DNA of 40,630 bases from a virus. A model generated the notes under the pieces. The model did not search any database. It saw only the letters and a list, made by a program, of their open reading frames with translations, and was not told where the DNA came from. This document shows positions 3,696 to 29,483 of the stretch, piece by piece. Made by a program: the position numbers and the translations under genes. How positions within the stretch are numbered: position 1 is the first letter of the stretch; each line of letters begins with the position of its first letter. The stretch covers positions 1 to 40,630 of the IMG/VR virus record IMGVR_UViG_3300023272_000006. One strand, given 5' to 3'.

Positions 3696-3891
3696 CATGT
3701 TTTCATTTGTGATTTCTTGTAGTGTATGCGGAGGTACTCATGAGTACCCCGAGTGTTTGATTCCGCCCGAGAAGTAACGCACAGAAGGGATTGTCTGTTG
3801 TCCTACCACGACTAGTGGGGCTACAGGAGGCAAGCCCCTCAAACTTTCGGTTATGCCGAACGTAAAGGAACCTGTTTCTCAGGTTCCGTAT
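3696..3891 (+). other. Long tRNA spacer with palindromes
   Basis: No gene or further tRNA could be supported in these 196 bases. It contains a perfect 16-bp palindrome GGTACTCATGAGTACC (3733-3748), a GGGGCT/AGCCCC pair around 3817-3838, a TTCGG/CCGAA hairpin near 3846-3860, and an 8-bp perfect hairpin GGAACCTG/CAGGTTCC with loop TTTCT (3867-3887) just before tRNA-Pro. The spacing suggests a remnant of lost tRNAs or structured processing signals. Confidence 0.5.
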
Positions 3892-4073: not shown

Positions 4074-4196
4074 ATGAAGTGTTCATGCACTTGTGGGTGC
4101 TGGAGTAGCAACCCCGATATTGGTAATGGTGAATGGTGTAAGGCGTGTGAGAACGGACGCCATAAAGAGGATCGGATTACCGATCGAGATGACTAG
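4074..4196 (+). CDS. Cys-rich zinc-ribbon-like microprotein (40 residues)
   Basis: ATG at 4074 begins two bases after tRNA-Val and runs to TAG at 4194-4196. The protein starts MKCSCTCGCW, followed by a CKAC knuckle near residue 22 and a GRH tail: six cysteines arranged C-x-C-x-C-x-C then C-x2-C. This resembles small actinophage zinc-finger proteins of unknown role. The only ribosome site is GAGGG (4066-4070) inside the tRNA. The segment also holds short hairpins (GATCGG/CCGATC near its end). It is likely a real gene, though its size leaves doubt. Confidence 0.6.
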   Translation: MKCSCTCGCWSSNPDIGNGEWCKACENGRHKEDRITDRDD

Positions 4197-21981: not shown

Positions 21982-22092
21982 CTATTTACGTAGCTTTCTC
22001 CACAGGAGGACGAACAACCACAACCCACCTGTGAACACGACCATCAGGAAGTTGACCCAAAATCCGTTACGACGATACTCCCAGCTTGCCAT
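21982..22092 (-). CDS. Possible small membrane protein (36 residues)
   Basis: ATG at 22092 (complement), stop at 21982-21984. Residues 11-31 form one hydrophobic span (FWVNFLMVVFTGGLWLFVLLW) flanked by basic ends. It overlaps the last 49 bases of the deaminase gene in another frame. GGTGG a few bases upstream could act as a ribosome site. If real it is the last gene of the early operon. The overlap makes it uncertain. Confidence 0.4.
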   Translation of the reverse strand: MASWEYRRNGFWVNFLMVVFTGGLWLFVLLWRKLRK

Positions 22093-22484
22093 GTCACCAC
22101 CTTGCTTACACCGGTGGCTCTAATGGCCTTCAGACAGCCGTAGCAGGGCGAACGAGTCACGTAGAGGGTTGCACCATGGAGGTCACTTCTGTCACAGTAC
22201 AAAAGGGCGTTGAGTTCAGCGTGGATGGCAACGCAGTTGGAGTAACAGGACCCAGGAGCCACATCTGAAACTGCCCGAGGGCATGAGCCACATCCAGCCA
22301 TTCCTGACGGTGCTCCATTGTACCCTGTACTCCTTATCCGCTTGTCTTCTCCAACGACCACTGCACCAACTTGATCCCTAACGCAATCTGAGCGTCCAGC
22401 AACAGCCTCCGCAATCCCCAGAAAGTACTCATCCCAAGTCGGTCTTGGAGGGAGTTTAACGACTCCGGGGTAGTCAAGGGTCAC
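22044..22484 (-). CDS. dCMP deaminase-type enzyme
   Basis: A protein of 146 residues of the cytidine/deoxycytidylate deaminase family. Zinc-binding and catalytic residues are clear: His88-Ala-Glu90 in IHAELNALLY and Cys114/Cys117 in RSPCYGCLKA. An additional Cys cluster (CGSCPRA and SCYSNC) resembles the second zinc site of T4 dCMP deaminase. It makes dUMP, the substrate of ThyX encoded about 9 kb upstream in the same operon. The ATG overlaps the stop of the preceding gene by 4 bases. Confidence 0.88.
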   Translation of the reverse strand: MTLDYPGVVKLPPRPTWDEYFLGIAEAVAGRSDCVRDQVGAVVVGEDKRIRSTGYNGAPSGMAGCGSCPRAVSDVAPGSCYSNCVAIHAELNALLYCDRSDLHGATLYVTRSPCYGCLKAIRATGVSKVVTWQAGSIVVTDFGSTS

Positions 22485-22681
22485 TCCGGATCCAGCTCCG
22501 ACTCAGCAAAGTTTGGGCTACCGCCATTCCGACCATCAATCCACACACAGTAGGGACGCTCTGGCGTAGACCCATGGTCCGGGTCATCCACAACCGTCAC
22601 CTTGCCATGCAGACCAACCAAGGGCTCCCACCCGTAGGTGTCGTTGATGATTACGCGGTCCCCGACTTCATACTTGAACAT
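22481..22681 (-). CDS. Small SH3/KOW-like protein
   Basis: A protein of 66 residues. It opens with KYEVGDRVIINDTYG, continues with GLHGKVTVVDDP and YCVWIDG, and ends in an acidic ESELDPE: the strand order of a KOW/SH3-like barrel. It resembles the other small barrels in this arm (29797-29982, 30834-31058). The function is unknown; such barrels bind nucleic acid or RNA polymerase in other systems. AAGAGG lies shortly before the ATG. Confidence 0.65.
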   Translation of the reverse strand: MFKYEVGDRVIINDTYGWEPLVGLHGKVTVVDDPDHGSTPERPYCVWIDGRNGGSPNFAESELDPE

Positions 22682-22692
22682 GGTACCTCTTC

Positions 22693-22968
22693 CTAATCGA
22701 GTGTGACTGCCCCGTTGGCAGCCTCACAAACTTCCTTCAAAAAGTCCTCGAAATCAAAGTATTTGACGTCATTGTACACCCAACGGCCATCTTTGGTGTA
22801 AGCCTGCATCGATACCTCAGCCTCTGACGAGGAAGAACAACTGCAACCCCATCCGGAGTCTACCTGAAGCTCCATCCGGAAAGTGTCAGTGTCGATTTCC
22901 TCACCTTCAATCAGAGCGAAGGCTAGCTGCTTAGCACCCCAGGCCTTGAGGGCCTCGTCATACTTCAT
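22693..22968 (-). CDS. Hypothetical protein, 91 residues
   Basis: Unrecognised. It starts MKYDEALKAWGAKQLAFAL, a phrase reminiscent of other actinophage early proteins, has a GWGCSCSSSSEAEV segment in the middle and a C-terminal helix (FDFEDFLKEVCEAANG). GGAG lies 7 bases before the ATG. It is acidic and soluble, with no membrane segment. Confidence 0.65.
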   Translation of the reverse strand: MKYDEALKAWGAKQLAFALIEGEEIDTDTFRMELQVDSGWGCSCSSSSEAEVSMQAYTKDGRWVYNDVKYFDFEDFLKEVCEAANGAVTLD

Positions 22969-22977
22969 GTTGTCTCC

Positions 22978-23052
22978 TCAACACTGGTCACAGGAACTAA
23001 CACCATCAATACAGCATGTGGCGCTCTTACAGCGCCAACAGGTAACACACAT
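22978..23052 (-). CDS. Cys-rich microprotein (24 residues)
   Basis: ATG at 23052 (complement), TGA at 22978-22980. Seven of 24 residues are cysteine (MCVTCWRCKSATCC..., ending CDQC), giving two or more C-x2-C pairs that could bind one zinc. AGAGG lies 5 bases before the start. It sits neatly between two genes on the same strand, which supports it. Confidence 0.55.
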   Translation of the reverse strand: MCVTCWRCKSATCCIDGVSSCDQC

Positions 23053-23054
23053 GG

Positions 23055-23192
23055 TTACCTCTTCTCTGGGTCCTGCCACGGGAAAGGCTCTTCCCGAGGC
23101 TCTGGGATCGGCTTAGGCGGTGGGGGACAGGGATTGGAAGGTGAGTGCGAACCTAAACAGTGTGGACAGTAGGGCGTTCCCTTGCCTGCCAT
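23055..23192 (-). CDS. Small CxxC, proline-rich protein (45 residues)
   Basis: ATG at 23192 overlaps the preceding stop (TAATG), with AAGGAG 7 bases upstream. The N-terminus has a YCPHC knuckle with CPPPPKP following, and the rest is Pro/Glu-rich (PEPREEPFPW). One half of a zinc site is visible. The function is unknown. Confidence 0.55.
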   Translation of the reverse strand: MAGKGTPYCPHCLGSHSPSNPCPPPPKPIPEPREEPFPWQDPEKR

Positions 23193-23410
23193 TAGAGTTC
23201 TCCTTGGTCTTCCTTGATGACATCGTAGGGGTCAATTTCTGTGACGTGAGCGCCACGGATGCGGTAGCAAGTCAGGTGGGAGAGAGTGGTCTTGTCTTGC
23301 AGCTCTTTCCGCAACCAGTTCTCAAGGTTGTACTTCTTGGTGTAAGCGCACTTGACTTCAAGCTCATCAAGGAATGGGTCCCACTCAAGGGCCATGTAGA
23401 TGTAGTCCAC
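23192..23410 (-). CDS. Hypothetical protein, 72 residues
   Basis: Unrecognised. It begins with GTG 23410, whose G is shared with the preceding TAG, then DYIYMALEWDPFLDELEVK, a central YNLENWLRKEL helix and a CYRIRGAHVTEID strand. ATG 23395 is an alternative start. It is part of the coupled chain of small early genes. Confidence 0.6.
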   Translation of the reverse strand: MDYIYMALEWDPFLDELEVKCAYTKKYNLENWLRKELQDKTTLSHLTCYRIRGAHVTEIDPYDVIKEDQGEL

Positions 23411-23538
23411 TACTTGTCCTTCCGGGCCTGGGCCTCTCGTGCGGCTTCCTTGATTCGGTCAACCACCTCAAGCGGAGGTGCGTCAGCAATCTTCTCGGCT
23501 ACTGACTTCTCTTCAGGCTCATTGAATGCATCAGTCAT
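23410..23538 (-). CDS. Small helical charged protein (42 residues)
   Basis: ATG at 23538, TAG at 23410-23412. The sequence is Glu/Lys/Ala-rich and helical (EEKSVAEKIADAPPLEVVDR, then EAAREAQARK). It overlaps both neighbours by a few bases, and codon use fits the operon. The function is unknown. Confidence 0.5.
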   Translation of the reverse strand: MTDAFNEPEEKSVAEKIADAPPLEVVDRIKEAAREAQARKDK

Positions 23539-23629
23539 CTTTGTCTGCGTCCTCTTCCTTTTCCTGAACCAGGTCCTGGAGTTGCTCTACTGCGTTTTCC
23601 CAGTAGGCTTCTTTATCGAAGGGGTCCAT
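23531..23629 (-). CDS. Small acidic protein (32 residues)
   Basis: ATG at 23629 overlaps the stop of the upstream gene, and its TGA at 23531-23533 overlaps the next ATG region. The composition is acidic and helical (YWENAVEQLQDLVQEKEED). Translational coupling is the main support. Confidence 0.45.
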   Translation of the reverse strand: MDPFDKEAYWENAVEQLQDLVQEKEEDADKDD

Positions 23630-23784
23630 CACCAGTTCCGCATCTTCGTCTTGGGCTCAGAGTCAGTCAATGCCTCACGGCACTGGTTCTTGTAGTCCTC
23701 GTTGGTCCGGTCGTGGGTCACACCAGGGTTGGTGATTGCAGCATCGCCACGAGAGGTTTCGGTTTCCCAAGTTCTGTCAGACAT
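23629..23784 (-). CDS. Small hydrophilic protein (51 residues)
   Basis: ATG at 23784 has AAGGAG 6 bases upstream, and TGA lies at 23629-23631. It begins MSDRTWETETSRGDAA and contains NEDYKNQCREAL. No domain is recognised. A good ribosome site and tight packing support it. Confidence 0.55.
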   Translation of the reverse strand: MSDRTWETETSRGDAAITNPGVTHDRTNEDYKNQCREALTDSEPKTKMRNW

Positions 23785-23793
23785 TGAAACTCC

Positions 23794-23880
23794 TTAGTTG
23801 CTAGGAGGACCCGGACAATCGTGACGTTCCAGGTCCATGACTCGGCTGAAGGATTGATAACAGGTTTGGCAGACTAGCAT
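23794..23880 (-). CDS. Single zinc-finger microprotein (28 residues)
   Basis: ATG at 23880 shares a base with the upstream TAA (TAATG). The peptide is essentially one finger: MLVCQTCYQSFSRVMDLERH then DC, giving C-x2-C-x12-H-x-C, close to a classical C2H2/C2HC finger with the hydrophobic core (F, L) in place. It may bind nucleic acid or protein. Confidence 0.6.
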   Translation of the reverse strand: MLVCQTCYQSFSRVMDLERHDCPGPPSN

Positions 23881-24017
23881 TAGTCCTCATCCGGAGGATT
23901 CGTGCACGCACTTCCGTGAGAACCCCACCCCGAGGGGTAGTAGTCCCCACAGTCGGGGCACTTGGTCATTCCCTGCGTGTTGAAGTCACCAATCGGGTTA
24001 CGTCCGAAGATACTCAT
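23880..24017 (-). CDS. Zinc-finger-like microprotein (45 residues)
   Basis: ATG at 24017, TAA at 23880-23882. The C-terminal half has KCPDCGDYYPSGWGSH followed by a Cys, a C-x2-C ... H-x4-C arrangement. The N-terminus MSIFGRNPIGDFNTQG is unrecognised. It is coupled to both neighbours. Confidence 0.58.
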   Translation of the reverse strand: MSIFGRNPIGDFNTQGMTKCPDCGDYYPSGWGSHGSACTNPPDED

Positions 24018-24019
24018 GG

Positions 24020-24166
24020 TTACTCCTGGTTGGCTGGGTTGGAGGGACAATTGAAAGCATGGTTGGTAGCCTGGTTGTTGGCATCAGCCACGGCCTCATT
24101 GTGGTTCTTGCCGTAACCCGTGAAGGATGCCGAACAGAACGGGCACTGAGCAGTGGTACTAGCCAT
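24020..24166 (-). CDS. Zinc-finger-like microprotein (48 residues)
   Basis: ATG at 24166 overlaps the stop of the lipoprotein gene. It has a CPFCSASFTGYGKNH finger near the start and HAFNC near the end, so C-x2-C with His and Cys partners. Third of three consecutive finger genes in a coupled row. The function is unknown. Confidence 0.58.
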   Translation of the reverse strand: MASTTAQCPFCSASFTGYGKNHNEAVADANNQATNHAFNCPSNPANQE

Positions 24167-24387
24167 TACCTACAGCTCCCTGTGTTGGCGACTGCCACTC
24201 CACCAGTACTCGTGAAGTAGACAAGTCGGTTGGTTTCGGTGTCACACAGCTTGTACAACGTGTGGCCATCCACACGGGTCACCGTAACAGGCCCTGAGGT
24301 GCCCGCTGAGGCACCAGAATTGGCTACCCCACACGATGACACCACCAGAGCCACTGCGAGGCTTACAGAGGCAACGAAAGCCTTCAC
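24166..24387 (-). CDS. Small lipoprotein
   Basis: A protein of 73 residues starting with GTG 24387. The signal peptide MKAFVASVSLAVALVVSSC ends in a lipobox (VSSC, Cys19), so signal peptidase II processing and lipid anchoring outside the membrane are expected. The exported part is about 54 residues, beta-rich (VTVTRVDGHTLYKLCDTETN) with a second cysteine pair. Its early-operon location suggests action on the infected cell surface, for example blocking superinfection; that is inference. Confidence 0.72.
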   Translation of the reverse strand: MKAFVASVSLAVALVVSSCGVANSGASAGTSGPVTVTRVDGHTLYKLCDTETNRLVYFTSTGGVAVANTGSCR

Positions 24388-24617
24388 AGATCAAGCACCT
24401 CCACCTTCAGCACATTGACTGTTGGGTACAGGAAGATGTTGTTGTTCACATCAGCAACCAGAAGATACCCATGTGCGTGCATCGTGACAGCATTAGCAGC
24501 CTCAATCTCGTGAAGATCCCAATGCAGGTCTTCATAGGCAGTGATTTGTGCCAATTGGTGCCGGTTATCAAACACAGGCTTGTGGCTGGGCAGCTTATAA
24601 CAAACGTTAGCCTTCAA
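24384..24617 (-). CDS. Hypothetical protein, 77 residues
   Basis: The frame is open further upstream, but the best start is TTG 24617, with GAGAGG 8 bases before it, overlapping the end of the previous gene. It begins KANVCYKLPSHKPVFDNRH, contains YEDLHWDLHEIEAAN and ends in strands (GYLLVADVNNNIFLYP). No family is recognised. It overlaps the lipoprotein GTG by 4 bases. Confidence 0.55.
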   Translation of the reverse strand: MKANVCYKLPSHKPVFDNRHQLAQITAYEDLHWDLHEIEAANAVTMHAHGYLLVADVNNNIFLYPTVNVLKVEVLDL

Positions 24618-24858
24618 GAGCCTCAACCTCTCCGACTGGACGACGAACCGGTCGGTACTGCTGGTTGCTCTTCCATCCATAACGGGTTGCCCTGAGCTGT
24701 GCCAGTGCGTTGTTAGCACTTGCCTTGCTCGGGTACCAACCATTGAAGTGGTTAGTGCTGGCCATTCGCCACTCACCGTAGTGAGTGGAGAAGTACTGAA
24801 CACCATATTCGTAATCTTCGGCCACGAACATCACGGGATCGGTAAACTCAGTAGTCAC
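24607..24858 (-). CDS. Hypothetical protein, 83 residues
   Basis: Unrecognised. It starts MTTEFTDPVMFVAEDYEYG, is aromatic-rich (YFSTHYGEWRMASTNHFNGW), and contains KASANNALAQLRATRYGWK, which recalls a small alpha/beta domain. It overlaps the preceding gene by 11 bases. Confidence 0.62.
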   Translation of the reverse strand: MTTEFTDPVMFVAEDYEYGVQYFSTHYGEWRMASTNHFNGWYPSKASANNALAQLRATRYGWKSNQQYRPVRRPVGEVEALEG

Positions 24859-25186
24859 GGGTTAGTTCTCCATCCTTGTCCCAGTCGGAAGGCACTGGCT
24901 TTTGCAGTGCCTTGTACAGCCGGTAAGCCTCAGGATAGAGACCACCACAAGCGCTTACCAGCTTCTTGAAGTCGTCGGGATAGTCGTAGTGGAAGTTTAC
25001 AGTCTCATCGGTGAGCCTGAGCTTGCGATCCTGGCAGATCATGTGGACCCTGTTATTTGAGAACTCTACGTATTCGTTGTCTTCCTCCAGGGTAACAAAT
25101 ACGCTCTTGTTATTAGCACCAGGGACAATCTCAACCTTGGAGACGTACCGAAGAGCCAGCCAGGGACGGTTAGCCGGAGCTGTCAT
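24848..25186 (-). CDS. Hypothetical protein, 112 residues
   Basis: Unrecognised. It has a beta-rich first half (WLALRYVSKVEIVPGANNKS, FVTLEEDNEYVEF) and a helical end (YPEAYRLYKALQKPVPSDW). Acidic and soluble. It overlaps both neighbours by a few bases. Confidence 0.65.
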   Translation of the reverse strand: MTAPANRPWLALRYVSKVEIVPGANNKSVFVTLEEDNEYVEFSNNRVHMICQDRKLRLTDETVNFHYDYPDDFKKLVSACGGLYPEAYRLYKALQKPVPSDWDKDGELTRDY

Positions 25187-25518
25187 GAGAAGAACTCCTC
25201 AATCTTGCCCTTGTAGAAGATCTGGTCAGGGCTATCAACCAGTTCGAGATCCCCGAGGTTGGCGATACCAACCACCTTGTTGTGGTTCTTCATGTAGCCA
25301 GGCTCGGCTTCTTGACAAAGCAGGTCTACCTCGTCCTCATACCTGGTGTGGTCCAGGTTGAGGTAGAACTCATCATCGTCATCAGACAGAGCAGAGTGCT
25401 TCTCAAGCCACACAGCAAGCTTGTCCAGCTCCGCCTGGTTACCATCAAGCTGCAACCAGAAGTGCCAGACCTCACCTTCCCACCGGTTGTCTTCGGTGAA
25501 CTTCACGAACTCACGCAT
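25183..25518 (-). CDS. Hypothetical protein, 111 residues
   Basis: Unrecognised acidic protein starting MREFVKFTEDNRWEGEVWHF, with an acidic centre (ALSDDDDEFYLNLDH) and IEEFFS at the end. ATG 25518 is preferred over GTG 25533 because GAGAGG lies 9 bases upstream of it. It overlaps the end of the tiny Cys-rich gene before it. Confidence 0.65.
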   Translation of the reverse strand: MREFVKFTEDNRWEGEVWHFWLQLDGNQAELDKLAVWLEKHSALSDDDDEFYLNLDHTRYEDEVDLLCQEAEPGYMKNHNKVVGIANLGDLELVDSPDQIFYKGKIEEFFS

Positions 25519-25582
25519 CTTTGGGCCTCTCACACTTGCAGGGATAAGTTTCCTGACAAACGGGGCATTTCTTCACAGACAT
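25511..25582 (-). CDS. Cys-rich microprotein (23 residues)
   Basis: ATG at 25582 has a perfect AGGAGG ribosome site 6 bases upstream, the strongest of the tiny genes, and TGA lies at 25511-25513. It reads MSVKKCPVCQETYPCKCERP: C-x2-C then C-x-C, a likely zinc knuckle. Confidence 0.62.
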   Translation of the reverse strand: MSVKKCPVCQETYPCKCERPKDA

Positions 25583-25592
25583 GAGTCACCTC

Positions 25593-25658
25593 CTAGTGAC
25601 CCTTGCATTGAGTCATGGGTTTACCACAACTCTTGAGTGGGCATACTGGGATCTTCAC
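25593..25658 (-). CDS. Cys-rich microprotein (21 residues)
   Basis: GTG at 25658 overlaps the stop of the upstream tiny gene (GGTGA), and TAG lies at 25593-25595. It contains VCPLKSCGKPMTQCKGH: three Cys and one His in a finger-like spacing. Coupling and composition are the evidence. Confidence 0.45.
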   Translation of the reverse strand: MKIPVCPLKSCGKPMTQCKGH

Positions 25659-25720
25659 CAGTCCGCCCCTGAATGAACTGGACACGGAAGGGTGTGGCCA
25701 CAGTGGCACTTGTTAGACAT
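25655..25720 (-). CDS. Cys/His-rich microprotein (21 residues)
   Basis: ATG at 25720 is preceded by AGAGGA about 5 bases upstream, with TGA at 25655-25657. It reads MSNKCHCGHTLPCPVHSGAD: three Cys and three His, a possible compact metal site. It is the first of three consecutive tiny Cys-rich genes. Confidence 0.5.
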   Translation of the reverse strand: MSNKCHCGHTLPCPVHSGADW

Positions 25721-25741
25721 TGTTCCTCTTCTCCTTGTTAG

Positions 25742-26575
25742 TTACGCGAAGGCTCGTGGTTCCTTGGACAGTGCATCAAAGTCAATCATGGACGTCTGAC
25801 GCTTTGCCTGGGCAATCTCCCACTTGTGCTTGTCATCTTCTCGAAGGAGGATCTTGTACCGCTGACGAGTATCACGCTGCCAAACAATGATTCCCTCCGC
25901 TCCCTCGACATAGAAATCCATCTTGTTGGAGTTGGGCAGGGTCATGAACCCTGTAGCCTGAGACCCATGAACCTGAAGAAGCTCAAGCGCCTTGGGGATA
26001 GTCATCCAGTCGGCCGGTCCATCCCGCTGCTCATCGTGAAGGACAGGAACCAGAGTAAGACCAGGGATGTCAGCATCCACAAGCCGTTCCAGGTTGCCCT
26101 TACCATGCCAGTGCCAGGTGTTGAACAGTGCCCACCTACGGCCCGCGACTGCGAGAGGATTCGCTTGGATACCTTCGCCGTACCACTCGCCATAATGGTA
26201 ACCGTATCCCAGAAGGTTTGCCAGACCATCAGCATTATCCCAGACCCACTTAGCAAAACCAAAGTTGTCATTCTGCGGAGTGATGATCCGCTTACGCGAC
26301 TGAGCCCTCACGAGGTACTCAACCTCAGGTGCATTGAACTCACCCACACCAGGGCCAAACACCAGTACAGCATCCGAAGGAACGGGATGATCCACGTGAT
26401 GACCAATGGAGAAGCCCTGGACACTCACACCAGCATTGGTTCCATTGATCTTCTCAGTGATGTGAAGACCCTTGTGGAACCTTGGGGTGGAACCCCACGA
26501 CTTGAACTGCCCGAAGGTGTCCTCATCGTCGTGGAGTTCGCTTCGCGATCCGTTCTCATGCGTCGTAGCAGTCAT
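25742..26575 (-). CDS. RNA ligase (Rnl2-like nucleotidyltransferase)
   Basis: A protein of 277 residues. Motif I is ITEKINGTNAG with Lys42 as the expected AMP-accepting lysine (KxNGTN resembles the KxxGTN of T4 Rnl2). Motif III-like HYGEWYGEGI, motif IV AEGIIVW and motif V KILLRED follow in the right order. Such enzymes seal RNA nicks, often in tRNA anticodon loops cut by host defence nucleases. The phage also carries seven tRNAs, but no end-healing kinase/phosphatase is visible in the window. The start overlaps the preceding stop. Confidence 0.82.
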   Translation of the reverse strand: MTATTHENGSRSELHDDEDTFGQFKSWGSTPRFHKGLHITEKINGTNAGVSVQGFSIGHHVDHPVPSDAVLVFGPGVGEFNAPEVEYLVRAQSRKRIITPQNDNFGFAKWVWDNADGLANLLGYGYHYGEWYGEGIQANPLAVAGRRWALFNTWHWHGKGNLERLVDADIPGLTLVPVLHDEQRDGPADWMTIPKALELLQVHGSQATGFMTLPNSNKMDFYVEGAEGIIVWQRDTRQRYKILLREDDKHKWEIAQAKRQTSMIDFDALSKEPRAFA

Positions 26576-27024
26576 CAGATCCTCACCATTTCAGTCTCGA
26601 TGTGAACAGACTCAAGGTTCTCGAAGTAACCCTTCCAGGTACCGTTGTAGAACGAGATACCAGCAACCTCGATCTGACCAAACCCACCACGGTTTGCCTC
26701 GTTGTCGTTGTAGATCGCATCCCTGACTGCAAGAGCCTTCTCAAGAGTGTCAACAACAGCCACGAGGGTGGTCTCACCCGAGGAATGACCAAAGGAGTTA
26801 CCCGTGCCATACTGGACAACAATCGGGAACACAACCTGACCAACCTCAGGTTCGAAGTCAACCTCTACACGCTCAGTCCACACACCAATTCGACCACGAG
26901 CCTCTTCTGCTAGGTAAACGTTGCACCCCTGGTAGTGGTACTCGGTTTCCCAGTCCCCATACGTCTCACCATCCCAATAGTTCCGGGCGGTGAGTGACTC
27001 CAATGCAACATACAGATCGGTCAC
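26575..27024 (-). CDS. Hypothetical protein, 149 residues
   Basis: Unrecognised. It starts MTDLYVALESLTARNYWDGE, with YQGCNVYLAEEARGRIGVW, a VVAVVDTLEKALAVRDAIYN helix and a C-terminal strand region (EVAGISFYNGTWKGYFEN). It looks like a single alpha/beta domain. One-base coupling with the RNA ligase gene suggests co-expression. Confidence 0.65.
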   Translation of the reverse strand: MTDLYVALESLTARNYWDGETYGDWETEYHYQGCNVYLAEEARGRIGVWTERVEVDFEPEVGQVVFPIVVQYGTGNSFGHSSGETTLVAVVDTLEKALAVRDAIYNDNEANRGGFGQIEVAGISFYNGTWKGYFENLESVHIETEMVRI

Positions 27025-27260
27025 TTGTCCCTCCCAGAAAGAACACGAAGCGAAAGTGCGATGTCGTGAAGAAGGACGTTGGTCTCAACCGAACCACTGG
27101 CCATCGTGGCCTTCACGCGGTTGTCGTAGTCATCCTGAGTGGTGAACCAATCACCCTCCTCCTTCTTGATCTGCTGAAGGTACTGATCGATGCCCAAAAT
27201 GTGGTCCTCGAAACCCTCGACGGAGTAGCTCTCACCAAGGTGGTTAAAAAGGTCGCTCAT
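27021..27260 (-). CDS. Hypothetical protein, 79 residues
   Basis: Unrecognised, mainly helical and acidic: MSDLFNHLGESYSVEGFEDH, QYLQQIKKEEGDWFTTQDDY, and a C-terminal helix VETNVLLHDIALSLRVL. GAGGAG lies before the ATG. Its stop overlaps the next start by 4 bases. Confidence 0.65.
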   Translation of the reverse strand: MSDLFNHLGESYSVEGFEDHILGIDQYLQQIKKEEGDWFTTQDDYDNRVKATMASGSVETNVLLHDIALSLRVLSGRDK

Positions 27261-27270
27261 GTGTTTCTCC

Positions 27271-27540
27271 TCAGAAGTCGTGTGCGCAGTAGGCGCAAGA
27301 ATAGATTTGGTTTACATCGTAGGTAGGAATCCAGGGGTACAACCCCTGGTCAAACTTCAGCCAACCTTCATACAAGATGTCGTTGTAGTCGTTGACTAGG
27401 TCTTCAGGAGTGGGGTAGCAATGGTAGCACTCCCCACACACCTTGTACTGGTAATCGGTCAGGGGTTCATGACCATGAATGAGACACCACTCTCCTGCGG
27501 CATCCCATTCAGCAATTTGTTCGTAGGTTGGTTCATCCAT
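27271..27540 (-). CDS. Zinc-ribbon-like protein, 89 residues
   Basis: Starts MDEPTYEQIAEWDAAGEWCL; has KVCGECYHCYP near residue 35 and ends SCAYCAHDF, so two C-x2-C sets about 45 residues apart that could form one zinc site. The sequence between is acidic and aromatic. It overlaps the upstream gene by 8 bases. The function is unknown. Confidence 0.62.
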   Translation of the reverse strand: MDEPTYEQIAEWDAAGEWCLIHGHEPLTDYQYKVCGECYHCYPTPEDLVNDYNDILYEGWLKFDQGLYPWIPTYDVNQIYSCAYCAHDF

Positions 27541-27718
27541 TGAGGTGCCTTACGTGGACAGGTACCACCTGTGAAACCCCGTCAATGATATAAATCTTGA
27601 ACACCCAGGAGGTTCCATTGATCTCTTCATCACAGAAGATACACAGGTGGTAGTGCTGGCTAATGTCCGGCTTCGTACCAGTTCTTTCCGGCTGGTCCGG
27701 CTGAGGCTGGGAATTCAA
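27533..27718 (-). CDS. Small CxxC protein overlapping the polymerase gene
   Basis: A frame of 61 residues starting with TTG 27718, with AGGAGG 8 bases upstream inside the DNA polymerase gene. No ATG or GTG is available in frame. It has HYHLCIFCDEEINGTSW, one C-x2-C knuckle, and a beta-rich end (YIIDGVSQVVPVHVRH). The first 19 codons overlap polymerase in another frame; the true start could be later with a rare codon. Confidence 0.45.
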   Translation of the reverse strand: MNSQPQPDQPERTGTKPDISQHYHLCIFCDEEINGTSWVFKIYIIDGVSQVVPVHVRHLNG

Positions 27719-29483
27719 TCAACTGCCCTCCTGATTTAGGCTTGAAGGACCGCGTCATCACCTTCACGGCGTAGTCCCTATACTTGTCGAAATGTTTCCG
27801 GGGAACCGAGAAGATGAACTCGTCATGCACCTGCATCTTCACACACTTCAGAAGCCACAGTGGCATTGCCAAGAGGATGTCACACATGATCTCACGAGTA
27901 CCAGACTGACCGATAAGAGCCGGGGCCTGAGTGAACTCTCGTCCCTTCTCAACCCACATCTTCCGACCCCAGTCATTCAGGACATACCCATGAGCATGAG
28001 CGTAGGCACGTACCCTGTTCTGCCACTGAACCAGCACCTTGTATTCTGCATTCATTCCATCACAGAACACCTTGGCCTCCTTGAGAGGAGTCCCAGTCTG
28101 CTTAGACAAGGTGTTGGCCTGTCCACCATAGGACCAGCCATGCCCGAGAGGCTTGGCCAACTGCCTATACCGCTTGGGATCGGACTCGACTAGAGCCTTA
28201 CCCCAGGCTGCCAAGGCATTGATCATGTGACCATCAGCGCCAGGTTCGAATCGCTCTGCATACTTCTTGTCACCCGAGTAAGCAGCAACCACACGAGCAT
28301 CTGCGTTACTCAAGTCAATGCCGAACATGACTTCGTCGTAGTTATCTGGGATGAAGTAAGACTTCTCTACCGCACCTGGCCCATTAGCCGTCCACACGGT
28401 GAGTCCGGGTTTAGTGGTGCTCCATCTTCCAGAACGCTGAAGCATGGTGATATCGGGGTGTGCAAATCCATCAGCGTGGACTGAATCCAAAGCAAGGCTA
28501 GCAAGAGATCGCTGCCCCATGAGTTCAGCCAAAGCCTCACCAAAAGCCTCGGCTTCTGTTCCCTTAGTTTGGTCAAGGAGAACCTTCCCTCCTAGTGAGA
28601 TGTTGCCTGTGTCTGTCCGGGGCCAGTCCTTCTTCTTATAAGGGTCGATCCCCACATCCTTGAGGGCTTCAACGATGGCTGCCTTACCCTCGTTGGACCG
28701 CCAAGGCTGCTTACCTTCAGTGGGGAAGTCGTACTTCTCAACCAGTCCAGCCATGATTACCTCACGGTTGGCTGCTAGTTCATCCACACGGGCTTGTGCT
28801 GCCTCTTGGTCCACCCTCACACCATTGGATGCAATGACCTCCTTACGGGCCTCAATGCGCTGTTCCCTGAGGGCATAGTCATTGATACCCCCAAGCTCCA
28901 AAAGTCCGTCAGCAACAGCCTCAGAGGCCAATACGTCGTGCTTCAGGTACTCTCGATACCTCGGGTCATCCTGTGGGATCTTGCCATACCCATCAACCTC
29001 ACGTGCCTTGCCCTTCAGTTCAGGGTCACCGAACTCCTTGGCAAGAACCGAGAGTTCCATGGACTTACCCGGAACCCCTAGCTGATGAGCTTGCTCATCC
29101 AGACCGAACCAGGCCTTCATCTTGTCGGGTGAGTCGGCCAGAGCCTTCTTACCCTTACGGTTGACATAGGAATAAGGCGCTGGGTTAACCAGAACAGCAT
29201 GAGTCCAAGTGTTTAGCACCCTTCCCTGTTCGGTGAGGTCCAACCACACATCACTCCATGGTCCATACACCGCTTTGAAGTCGAATGCGTGGATATTGTG
29301 ACCAACAATCCATCGTGCCTTGTCAATCTGCTCGATCAGTTCATCAATCGAGGTGGTAATTCTGACTTCATCCTTCTTACGCCACTTGTACCCGATGAGC
29401 CTAACAAATTCCTCGGGGTCCATCGTGTATAGCTTAGTGGCAGAGTGTGATTCGATGTCGAAATAGATAGTGCCCCGAGGCAT
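27660..29483 (-). CDS. DNA polymerase I-like (family A)
   Basis: A protein of 607 residues with a 3'-5' exonuclease domain (start TIYFDIESHSATKL with the DxE pair; VGHNIHAFDFKAV) and a polymerase domain: motif A GIDLSNADARVVAAYSGD, O-helix RQLAKPLGHGWSYGGQ, and motif C VQVHDEFIFSVP-type (here MQVHDEFIFSVP). There is no 5' nuclease domain. Motif A has Asp where bacterial Pol I has Glu (SNADAR for SQIELR), which may lower ribonucleotide exclusion. It is the replicative polymerase of L5-like phages. Confidence 0.93.
   Translation of the reverse strand: MPRGTIYFDIESHSATKLYTMDPEEFVRLIGYKWRKKDEVRITTSIDELIEQIDKARWIVGHNIHAFDFKAVYGPWSDVWLDLTEQGRVLNTWTHAVLVNPAPYSYVNRKGKKALADSPDKMKAWFGLDEQAHQLGVPGKSMELSVLAKEFGDPELKGKAREVDGYGKIPQDDPRYREYLKHDVLASEAVADGLLELGGINDYALREQRIEARKEVIASNGVRVDQEAAQARVDELAANREVIMAGLVEKYDFPTEGKQPWRSNEGKAAIVEALKDVGIDPYKKKDWPRTDTGNISLGGKVLLDQTKGTEAEAFGEALAELMGQRSLASLALDSVHADGFAHPDITMLQRSGRWSTTKPGLTVWTANGPGAVEKSYFIPDNYDEVMFGIDLSNADARVVAAYSGDKKYAERFEPGADGHMINALAAWGKALVESDPKRYRQLAKPLGHGWSYGGQANTLSKQTGTPLKEAKVFCDGMNAEYKVLVQWQNRVRAYAHAHGYVLNDWGRKMWVEKGREFTQAPALIGQSGTREIMCDILLAMPLWLLKCVKMQVHDEFIFSVPRKHFDKYRDYAVKVMTRSFKPKSGGQLIEFPASAGPAGKNWYEAGH

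Follow-up and report, generated by a model that had tools for sequence, protein, structure and literature searches.

What are the tiny cysteine-rich reading frames crowded between the DNA polymerase and dCMP deaminase genes of virus record IMGVR_UViG_3300023272_000006, and what might their products do? This record, a 40.6-kb fragment (40,630 bases), is here called the window. A sequence-only reading of it had picked out eight such frames, named here by their lower coordinates (22978, 23055, 23794, 23880, 24020, 25511, 25593 and 25655), and had taken them for a battery of unrelated zinc microproteins involved in host takeover. Are these frames genes? Are they unrelated? Do they act on the host? 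As far as sequence comparison can tell, the battery is a lineage-specific set of conserved genes, partly related to one another, for proteins of about 21-50 residues.

All eight frames are present on the minus strand with the coordinates described, but the start codons of three probably lie later than had been assumed. Frame 22978 more likely begins at the ATG at 23052, giving 24 residues instead of 33; frame 23880 at the ATG at 24017, giving 45 instead of 56; and frame 25593 at the GTG at 25658, giving 21 instead of 38 and a GTGA overlap with the stop codon of 25655. The TAATG overlaps noted earlier are found at 24166, 23880 and 23192, and nearly all eight frames have good ribosome-binding sites. 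The best site belongs to 25511 (AGGAGGT, free energy (dG) -11.5) and the weakest to 23794 (dG -5.6), which has a TAATG overlap. Proposed genes fill 98.6% of positions 22044-27660; removing the eight frames from the operon leaves three gaps of 223, 381 and 208 bases.

How often would such frames arise by chance? Between 22900 and 25800 the minus strand holds seven open reading frames (ORFs) of 18-60 residues with a CxxC motif, compared with 1.4 expected from dinucleotide shuffles; none of 300 shuffles reached seven, and the plus strand of the same interval has no such ORF. We rejected an enrichment across the whole window, where 11 CxxC micro-ORFs are found and the shuffles give 9.7; the signal is therefore local. 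Such ORFs are about twice as numerous as expected in three related records; loci further removed show no clear excess. Prodigal usually calls nothing shorter than 30 codons, and five of the eight frames are below that length.

The sequence-only reading had named conservation in relatives as a test of its claim, and the claim survives for six of the eight frames, which are conserved. One relative is L002 (IMGVR_UViG_3300038441_000168), whose polymerase is 88% identical to that of the window. A scan with 23880 led to contigs L030, L032 and L033, and a scan with another family to L073 and L074; L032 and L033 are nearly one phage, as are L073 and L074. Frames 22978, 23055, 23794 and 23880 are kept in L002, together with two further Cys-rich frames at 27271 and 27533. 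Frame 24020 is kept in L030, and 25593 in both L030 and L002. In the L002 pairs, synonymous differences affect 0.69-0.99 of sites and amino acid-changing differences 0.09-0.32 (0.48 for 27533). Likewise, eight zinc-finger-like microproteins common to L033 and L074, when pooled, show 0.58 synonymous against 0.15 non-synonymous change.

Cysteines are the most constrained residues of the battery proteins. Alignments of eleven pairs of orthologues preserve 40 of 42 Cys columns and 214 of 373 other columns (P 1.7e-7, a value that treats residues within one family as independent, which they are not). His and aromatic positions are also kept, and the sequences are conserved along their whole length, beyond the Cys codons. 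The frames are thus very probably real, zinc-finger-like genes, several with fewer than 30 codons, in the leftward operon of the right arm, as had been proposed. No homologue of 25511 or 25655 was found; a ribosome site and tight gene packing make the former a probable gene and the latter a possible one.

The predicted products, all encoded on the minus strand, are diverse; we label the conserved families F1 to F9. At the downstream end, 22978..23052 encodes F9, MCVTCWRCKSATCCIDGVSSCDQC, with seven Cys in 24 residues, six of which are kept in L002 (14582-14659); its ribosome site has a dG of -7.1. F8 (23055..23192; 45 residues; TAATG start) has a CPHC ... H ... C knuckle and a Pro-rich tail, and is 84% identical to L002 14445-14579, with differences that are almost entirely synonymous. 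F7 (23794..23880; 28 residues; TAATG start) carries a C-x2-C-x3-F-x5-L-x2-H-x-C finger; synonymous sites are saturated between it and L002 13497-13583. F1 (23880..24017; 45 residues) has a C2HC finger, CPDC ... H-x3-C. F2 (24020..24166; 48 residues; TAATG start) has a C2HC finger with a long loop and is 63% identical to L030 4446-4592, the Cys being kept. Further upstream lie the 23-residue frame 25511..25582, with CPVC ... CKC; F3 (25593..25658), 21 residues from its GTG, VKIPVCPLKSCGKPMTQCKGH, which adjoins an RNA ligase gene; and the 21-residue frame 25655..25720, with CHCGH ... C ... H and an AAGGAG site (dG -8.3).

Are these proteins unrelated, as the sequence-only reading held? They include no close copies, so that part of its description stands. 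The products of 23880 and 24020 are detectably related, and F1, F2 and F4, the last a family found in relatives, are paralogous beyond their Cys and His pattern. The three match one another well above shuffled sequences with Cys and His held in place (z up to 8.7), and a profile of F1 run against the L030 record recovers F4 (E 5.7e-4) as well as F2 (E 0.019). By these comparisons they share one predicted C2HC finger. F8 and a second, copy-like F8 gene in L002 at 14669 form another related pair (z 4.3). Duplication and change have thus built part of the battery; the remaining families may be separate or may have diverged too far.

The set of families turns over between related phages. Every related contig with a battery (L002, L030, L032, L033, L073 and L074) has F1, as does the window. 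F2 occurs in the window and L030; F3 in the window, L002 and L030; F4 in L002 and L030; F5 in L002, L032/L033 and L073/L074; F6 in L030, L032/L033 and L073/L074; and F7, F8 and F9 in the window and L002 only. Families are gained, lost and reordered, and a gene's neighbors change while its sequence stays. A search based on the polymerase yielded 24 loci, and among those examined only L002 has a battery; downstream of the polymerase gene the others have zero to two CxxC micro-ORFs in the sense direction, of which many are probably due to chance. Searches of about 50,000 phage records by tblastn with 23055, 23880, 27271, 24020, F6 and F4 gave no significant match, and bacterial genomes searched with 24607 and F1 yielded no relative and so pointed to no host or prophage. 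Pfam, PHROGs and PADLOC scans of the microproteins returned nothing above cutoff or significant.

The genome in which the battery sits is recognizable. The terminases of cluster A Mycobacterium phages and of Rhodococcus phage RGL3 match the one encoded here at about 63% identity. The DNA polymerase I gene (27660..29483, minus strand), about 65% identical to copies in Mycobacterium abscessus prophages, bounds the interval upstream, and the dCMP deaminase gene (22044..22484, minus strand; PF00383, E 3.4e-20) bounds it downstream. The map follows that of D29, with a rightward structural arm containing tRNAs and a leftward arm with DNA polymerase I, small genes and dCMP deaminase; these are the features of cluster A (L5/D29-like) genomes. 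By this gene content the phage is L5/D29-like and its host an actinobacterium. D29 genes 38-43.1 occupy the corresponding position and are all small, but that interval spans about 1.35 kb and encodes no CxxC protein, whereas the window has about 5.2 kb (27660 down to 22484) with ten Cys-rich frames. The battery is likewise missing from the polymerase relatives examined other than L002. Kampy, a related cluster A phage, expresses its right arm at 5-15 min (PMC4626039), and by analogy the battery operon would be expressed early.

Other genes share the neighborhood. The RNA ligase gene lies at 25742..26575 on the minus strand (PF09414, E 1.1e-7; phrog_548, E 5e-21). The sequence-only reading had pointed to outlying knuckles at 27271, 27533 and 4074, and the first two have held up. 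Positions 27271..27540 (minus strand) encode an acidic protein of 89 residues whose six Cys are all kept in L002 10153-10392; 27533..27718 (minus strand) encodes up to 61 residues with one CxxC, which is kept in L002 10020-10160, although overall conservation is weaker. No homologue of 4074 was found; this frame is on the plus strand, immediately 3' of a tRNA. Between the finger genes, 23192..23784 (minus strand) holds four small genes without zinc motifs (23192, 23410, 23531 and 23629), which are conserved in L002. Three of them, in 23410-23784, encode 33-51 residues, and two of these products are strongly acidic or charged. An Rv2179c-type 3'-5' exoribonuclease gene lies among the relatives' finger genes (L002 12845-13351, L030 5569-6084 and L033 5852-6349), as assigned by PF16473 for L002 and judged similar by eye for L030 and L033. 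In its place the window encodes a 73-residue protein with a lipoprotein-like start (24166-24387).

What fold would such proteins adopt? An AlphaFold2 model of F4 (L030 5462-5572) is a beta-beta-alpha structure with a predicted local distance difference test score (pLDDT) of 86. Its matches by Foldseek and VIA-align are mainly zinc fingers, including protein-binding ones such as UBZ; the top VIA-align match is the ubiquitin-binding finger of human DNA polymerase eta (Z 3.4, root mean square deviation 1.9, 31 residues). The model thus has the fold of classical C2H2/C2HC fingers, and the profile scores fall short of their thresholds: PF00096 (zf-C2H2) matches 23794 at E 0.0065 and PF13913 matches L030 F4 at E 0.0068, both under the curated cutoffs. 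F4 resembles the eukaryotic C2HC/UBZ fingers of DNA polymerase eta, Rad18 and Sgf11 in predicted fold but not in family membership. To our knowledge the host lacks ubiquitin.

The nearest matches in sequence come from other phages. When F4 was run through tblastn, a Vibrio phage protein appeared at E 0.2 and homing endonucleases from T4-like phages at E 0.3-2. The HNH homing endonucleases of Enterobacter phage vB_EclM-UFV01 (URQ04129.1) and Klebsiella phage Roth67 (XNO97451.1) have the pattern C-x2-C-G ... H-E-x2-C-x2-N-P in common with F4, and the Vibrio finger has the same pattern without the G. With Cys and His fixed, these fingers match F4 at z 4.5-7.8 (4.5-7.6 for the endonucleases), values flattered by the fact that the search itself chose the pairs. 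E-values of 0.3-2 hint at a common origin with the endonuclease fingers. Pfam scans found no HNH nuclease domain in the microproteins; the finger alone is common to both. The endonuclease fingers are tandem, basic (+3 to +5) parts of a longer protein, whereas those of the battery are single, free-standing and acidic. Tandem C-x2-C ... H ... C fingers occur in annotated homing endonucleases of T4-like phages (L068 721-1122 and L070 373-1089), where no Pfam zinc-finger family scored above cutoff.

A different parallel is found in archaea. Haloferax volcanii C(P)XCG micro-proteins and Halobacterium Brz resemble the battery in that one genome encodes many single-domain, Cys-rich proteins of fewer than 70 residues, and some of them regulate genes (PMC11241148, PMC10716476, PMC2253796). 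The comparison is by motif alone: C(P)XCG proteins have two such motifs, whereas most battery members have one CxxC followed by His and Cys. No pair of C(P)XCG motifs occurs in any of the eight window frames; L033 7655-7795, with CPGC and CSDCG, comes nearer.

How might the battery act? We tentatively propose, with a little less than even confidence in the proposal as a whole, that the battery arose by radiation, within this lineage, of free-standing proteins with a single zinc finger, and that these bind either host proteins or early proteins of the phage. Its members are probably small binding modules. Judging from motif and fold prediction, most are likely to bind zinc, and each would use C-x2-C ... 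H-x3-C, or similarly spaced ligands, to hold one ion in a minimal finger fold. The acidic to neutral charge of most members, their varied loops and the gain and loss of families would fit rigid, zinc-stabilized knobs that each contact a partner protein, most likely one of the host's encountered early in infection. F1, F2, F4 and F7 have net charges of -1 to -6, opposite to those of the endonuclease fingers, an indirect argument for protein partners over plain binding to DNA; we slightly favor protein over nucleic acid. That the battery is directed at the host is a possibility to which we give not quite even weight. If early host proteins are the targets, the set would shift as hosts shift. Host takeover is a plausible hypothesis. 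Overexpression of small phage proteins whose function is unknown is often toxic to mycobacteria (PMC11075535), a finding that makes a host role credible here but does not demonstrate it.

Several observations weigh against this proposal. The F4 matches have low Z values, as is usual for a chain of 36 residues, and these speak at most to the general fold and not to function; the model of F1 from the window was too low in confidence (pLDDT 61), and its VIA-align row (Z 2.1) was left unused. When 14 C(P)XCG proteins of Haloferax were purified, only 9 were found to complex zinc, and the motif is not always zinc-binding (PMC11241148). The battery proteins show no similarity to any known takeover protein. 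Finally, F3 (+3 to +4) and 25511 (+2) are basic, which makes one function for all members doubtful.

These basic members, the likeness of F4 to endonuclease and Vibrio fingers and the classical zinc fingers among the matches would all suit proteins that bind nucleic acid, either as small regulators of phage transcription or translation like Com or Ogr or as freed DNA-binding modules of homing endonucleases. We consider this unlikely, though worth keeping in view: most members are acidic or neutral where similar endonuclease fingers are basic (+3 to +5), no finger is fused to a DNA-binding partner domain, and a single finger is seldom DNA-specific. Could the proteins instead be accessory subunits of adjacent phage enzymes? 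F3 may serve the RNA ligase, since it lies directly or shortly downstream of that gene in three phages (window 25593-26575, L002 10855-11662, L030 3041-3840). As an account of the battery this is improbable; most other families switch neighbors between contigs, and L033 and L074 have the ligase with no recognizable F3.

The remaining alternatives give the proteins little or no specific role. Overlapping starts, and the attenuator role proposed for cysteine-rich small ORFs in mycobacteria (PMC4633059), would fit cis-acting ORFs in which the act of translation matters rather than the product, through cysteine sensing or translation coupling. This is very improbable, for full sequences are kept, including His and aromatic residues and not Cys codons alone, and the genes keep their sequence despite changing neighbors. 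Buffering of metal or redox state by many small Cys-rich proteins could explain their number in one operon and the dense Cys of 22978, yet most members offer a single site with three or four ligands, and outside it their sequences are distinct and conserved, which buffering would not require; we rate it a shade lower still. That the frames are chance ORFs without function is hardly credible. The count for the whole window and the lack of homologues of 25511 and 25655 are in its favor, but conservation, the pattern of substitution and the local excess contradict it for 22978, 23055, 23794, 23880, 24020 and 25593.

Short Cys-containing ORFs also occur beside tRNA genes. In this lineage the ATG of such an ORF abuts the predicted 3' end of 5 of 46 tRNAs, compared with 0 of 58 in more distant relatives, a count made after the pattern had been spotted. 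The cases are window 3697-3777 and 4074-4196 (plus strand), after tRNA-Trp and tRNA-Val; ORFs after tRNA-Trp in L040 (after 10381) and L041 (after 3820); and one after tRNA-Gln in L045 (before 11095, minus strand). A sixth, in L076 (before 15246, minus strand), is the counterpart of the L045 case (MVFLCKDCGRFFCAC versus ...CVC). Mycobacterial translation needs no more than an ATG at the very start of the message (PMC4633059), so tRNA processing could free leaderless or near-leaderless messages; by this analogy, leaderless messages from phage tRNA processing are possible. Upstream of their tRNA arrays, L045 (12484-12932) and L076 (16588-17036) also have a tandem run of five minus-strand genes for zinc-knuckle-like microproteins (C-x2-C ... 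H ... C), arranged in identical order; at least some of these resemble mutual duplicates. A fuller scenario is that one C2HC finger, perhaps of shared origin with homing-endonuclease fingers, became a fast-changing, charge-reversed, free-standing kit against host proteins, with some members leaderless after phage tRNA cutting; taken as a whole we think this quite unlikely.

The battery is important because most small phage proteins are lone orphans, whereas here there are families with orthologues and paralogues across an operon and related contigs. With a confident fold model for one family, conservation, zinc binding and targets can be approached gene by gene. Several of the genes are too short for the length limit of common gene callers, so comparable sets may be going unnoticed in other genomes. 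If the proteins do bind host targets, the battery would show how evolution re-aims a minimal fold of about 25 residues.

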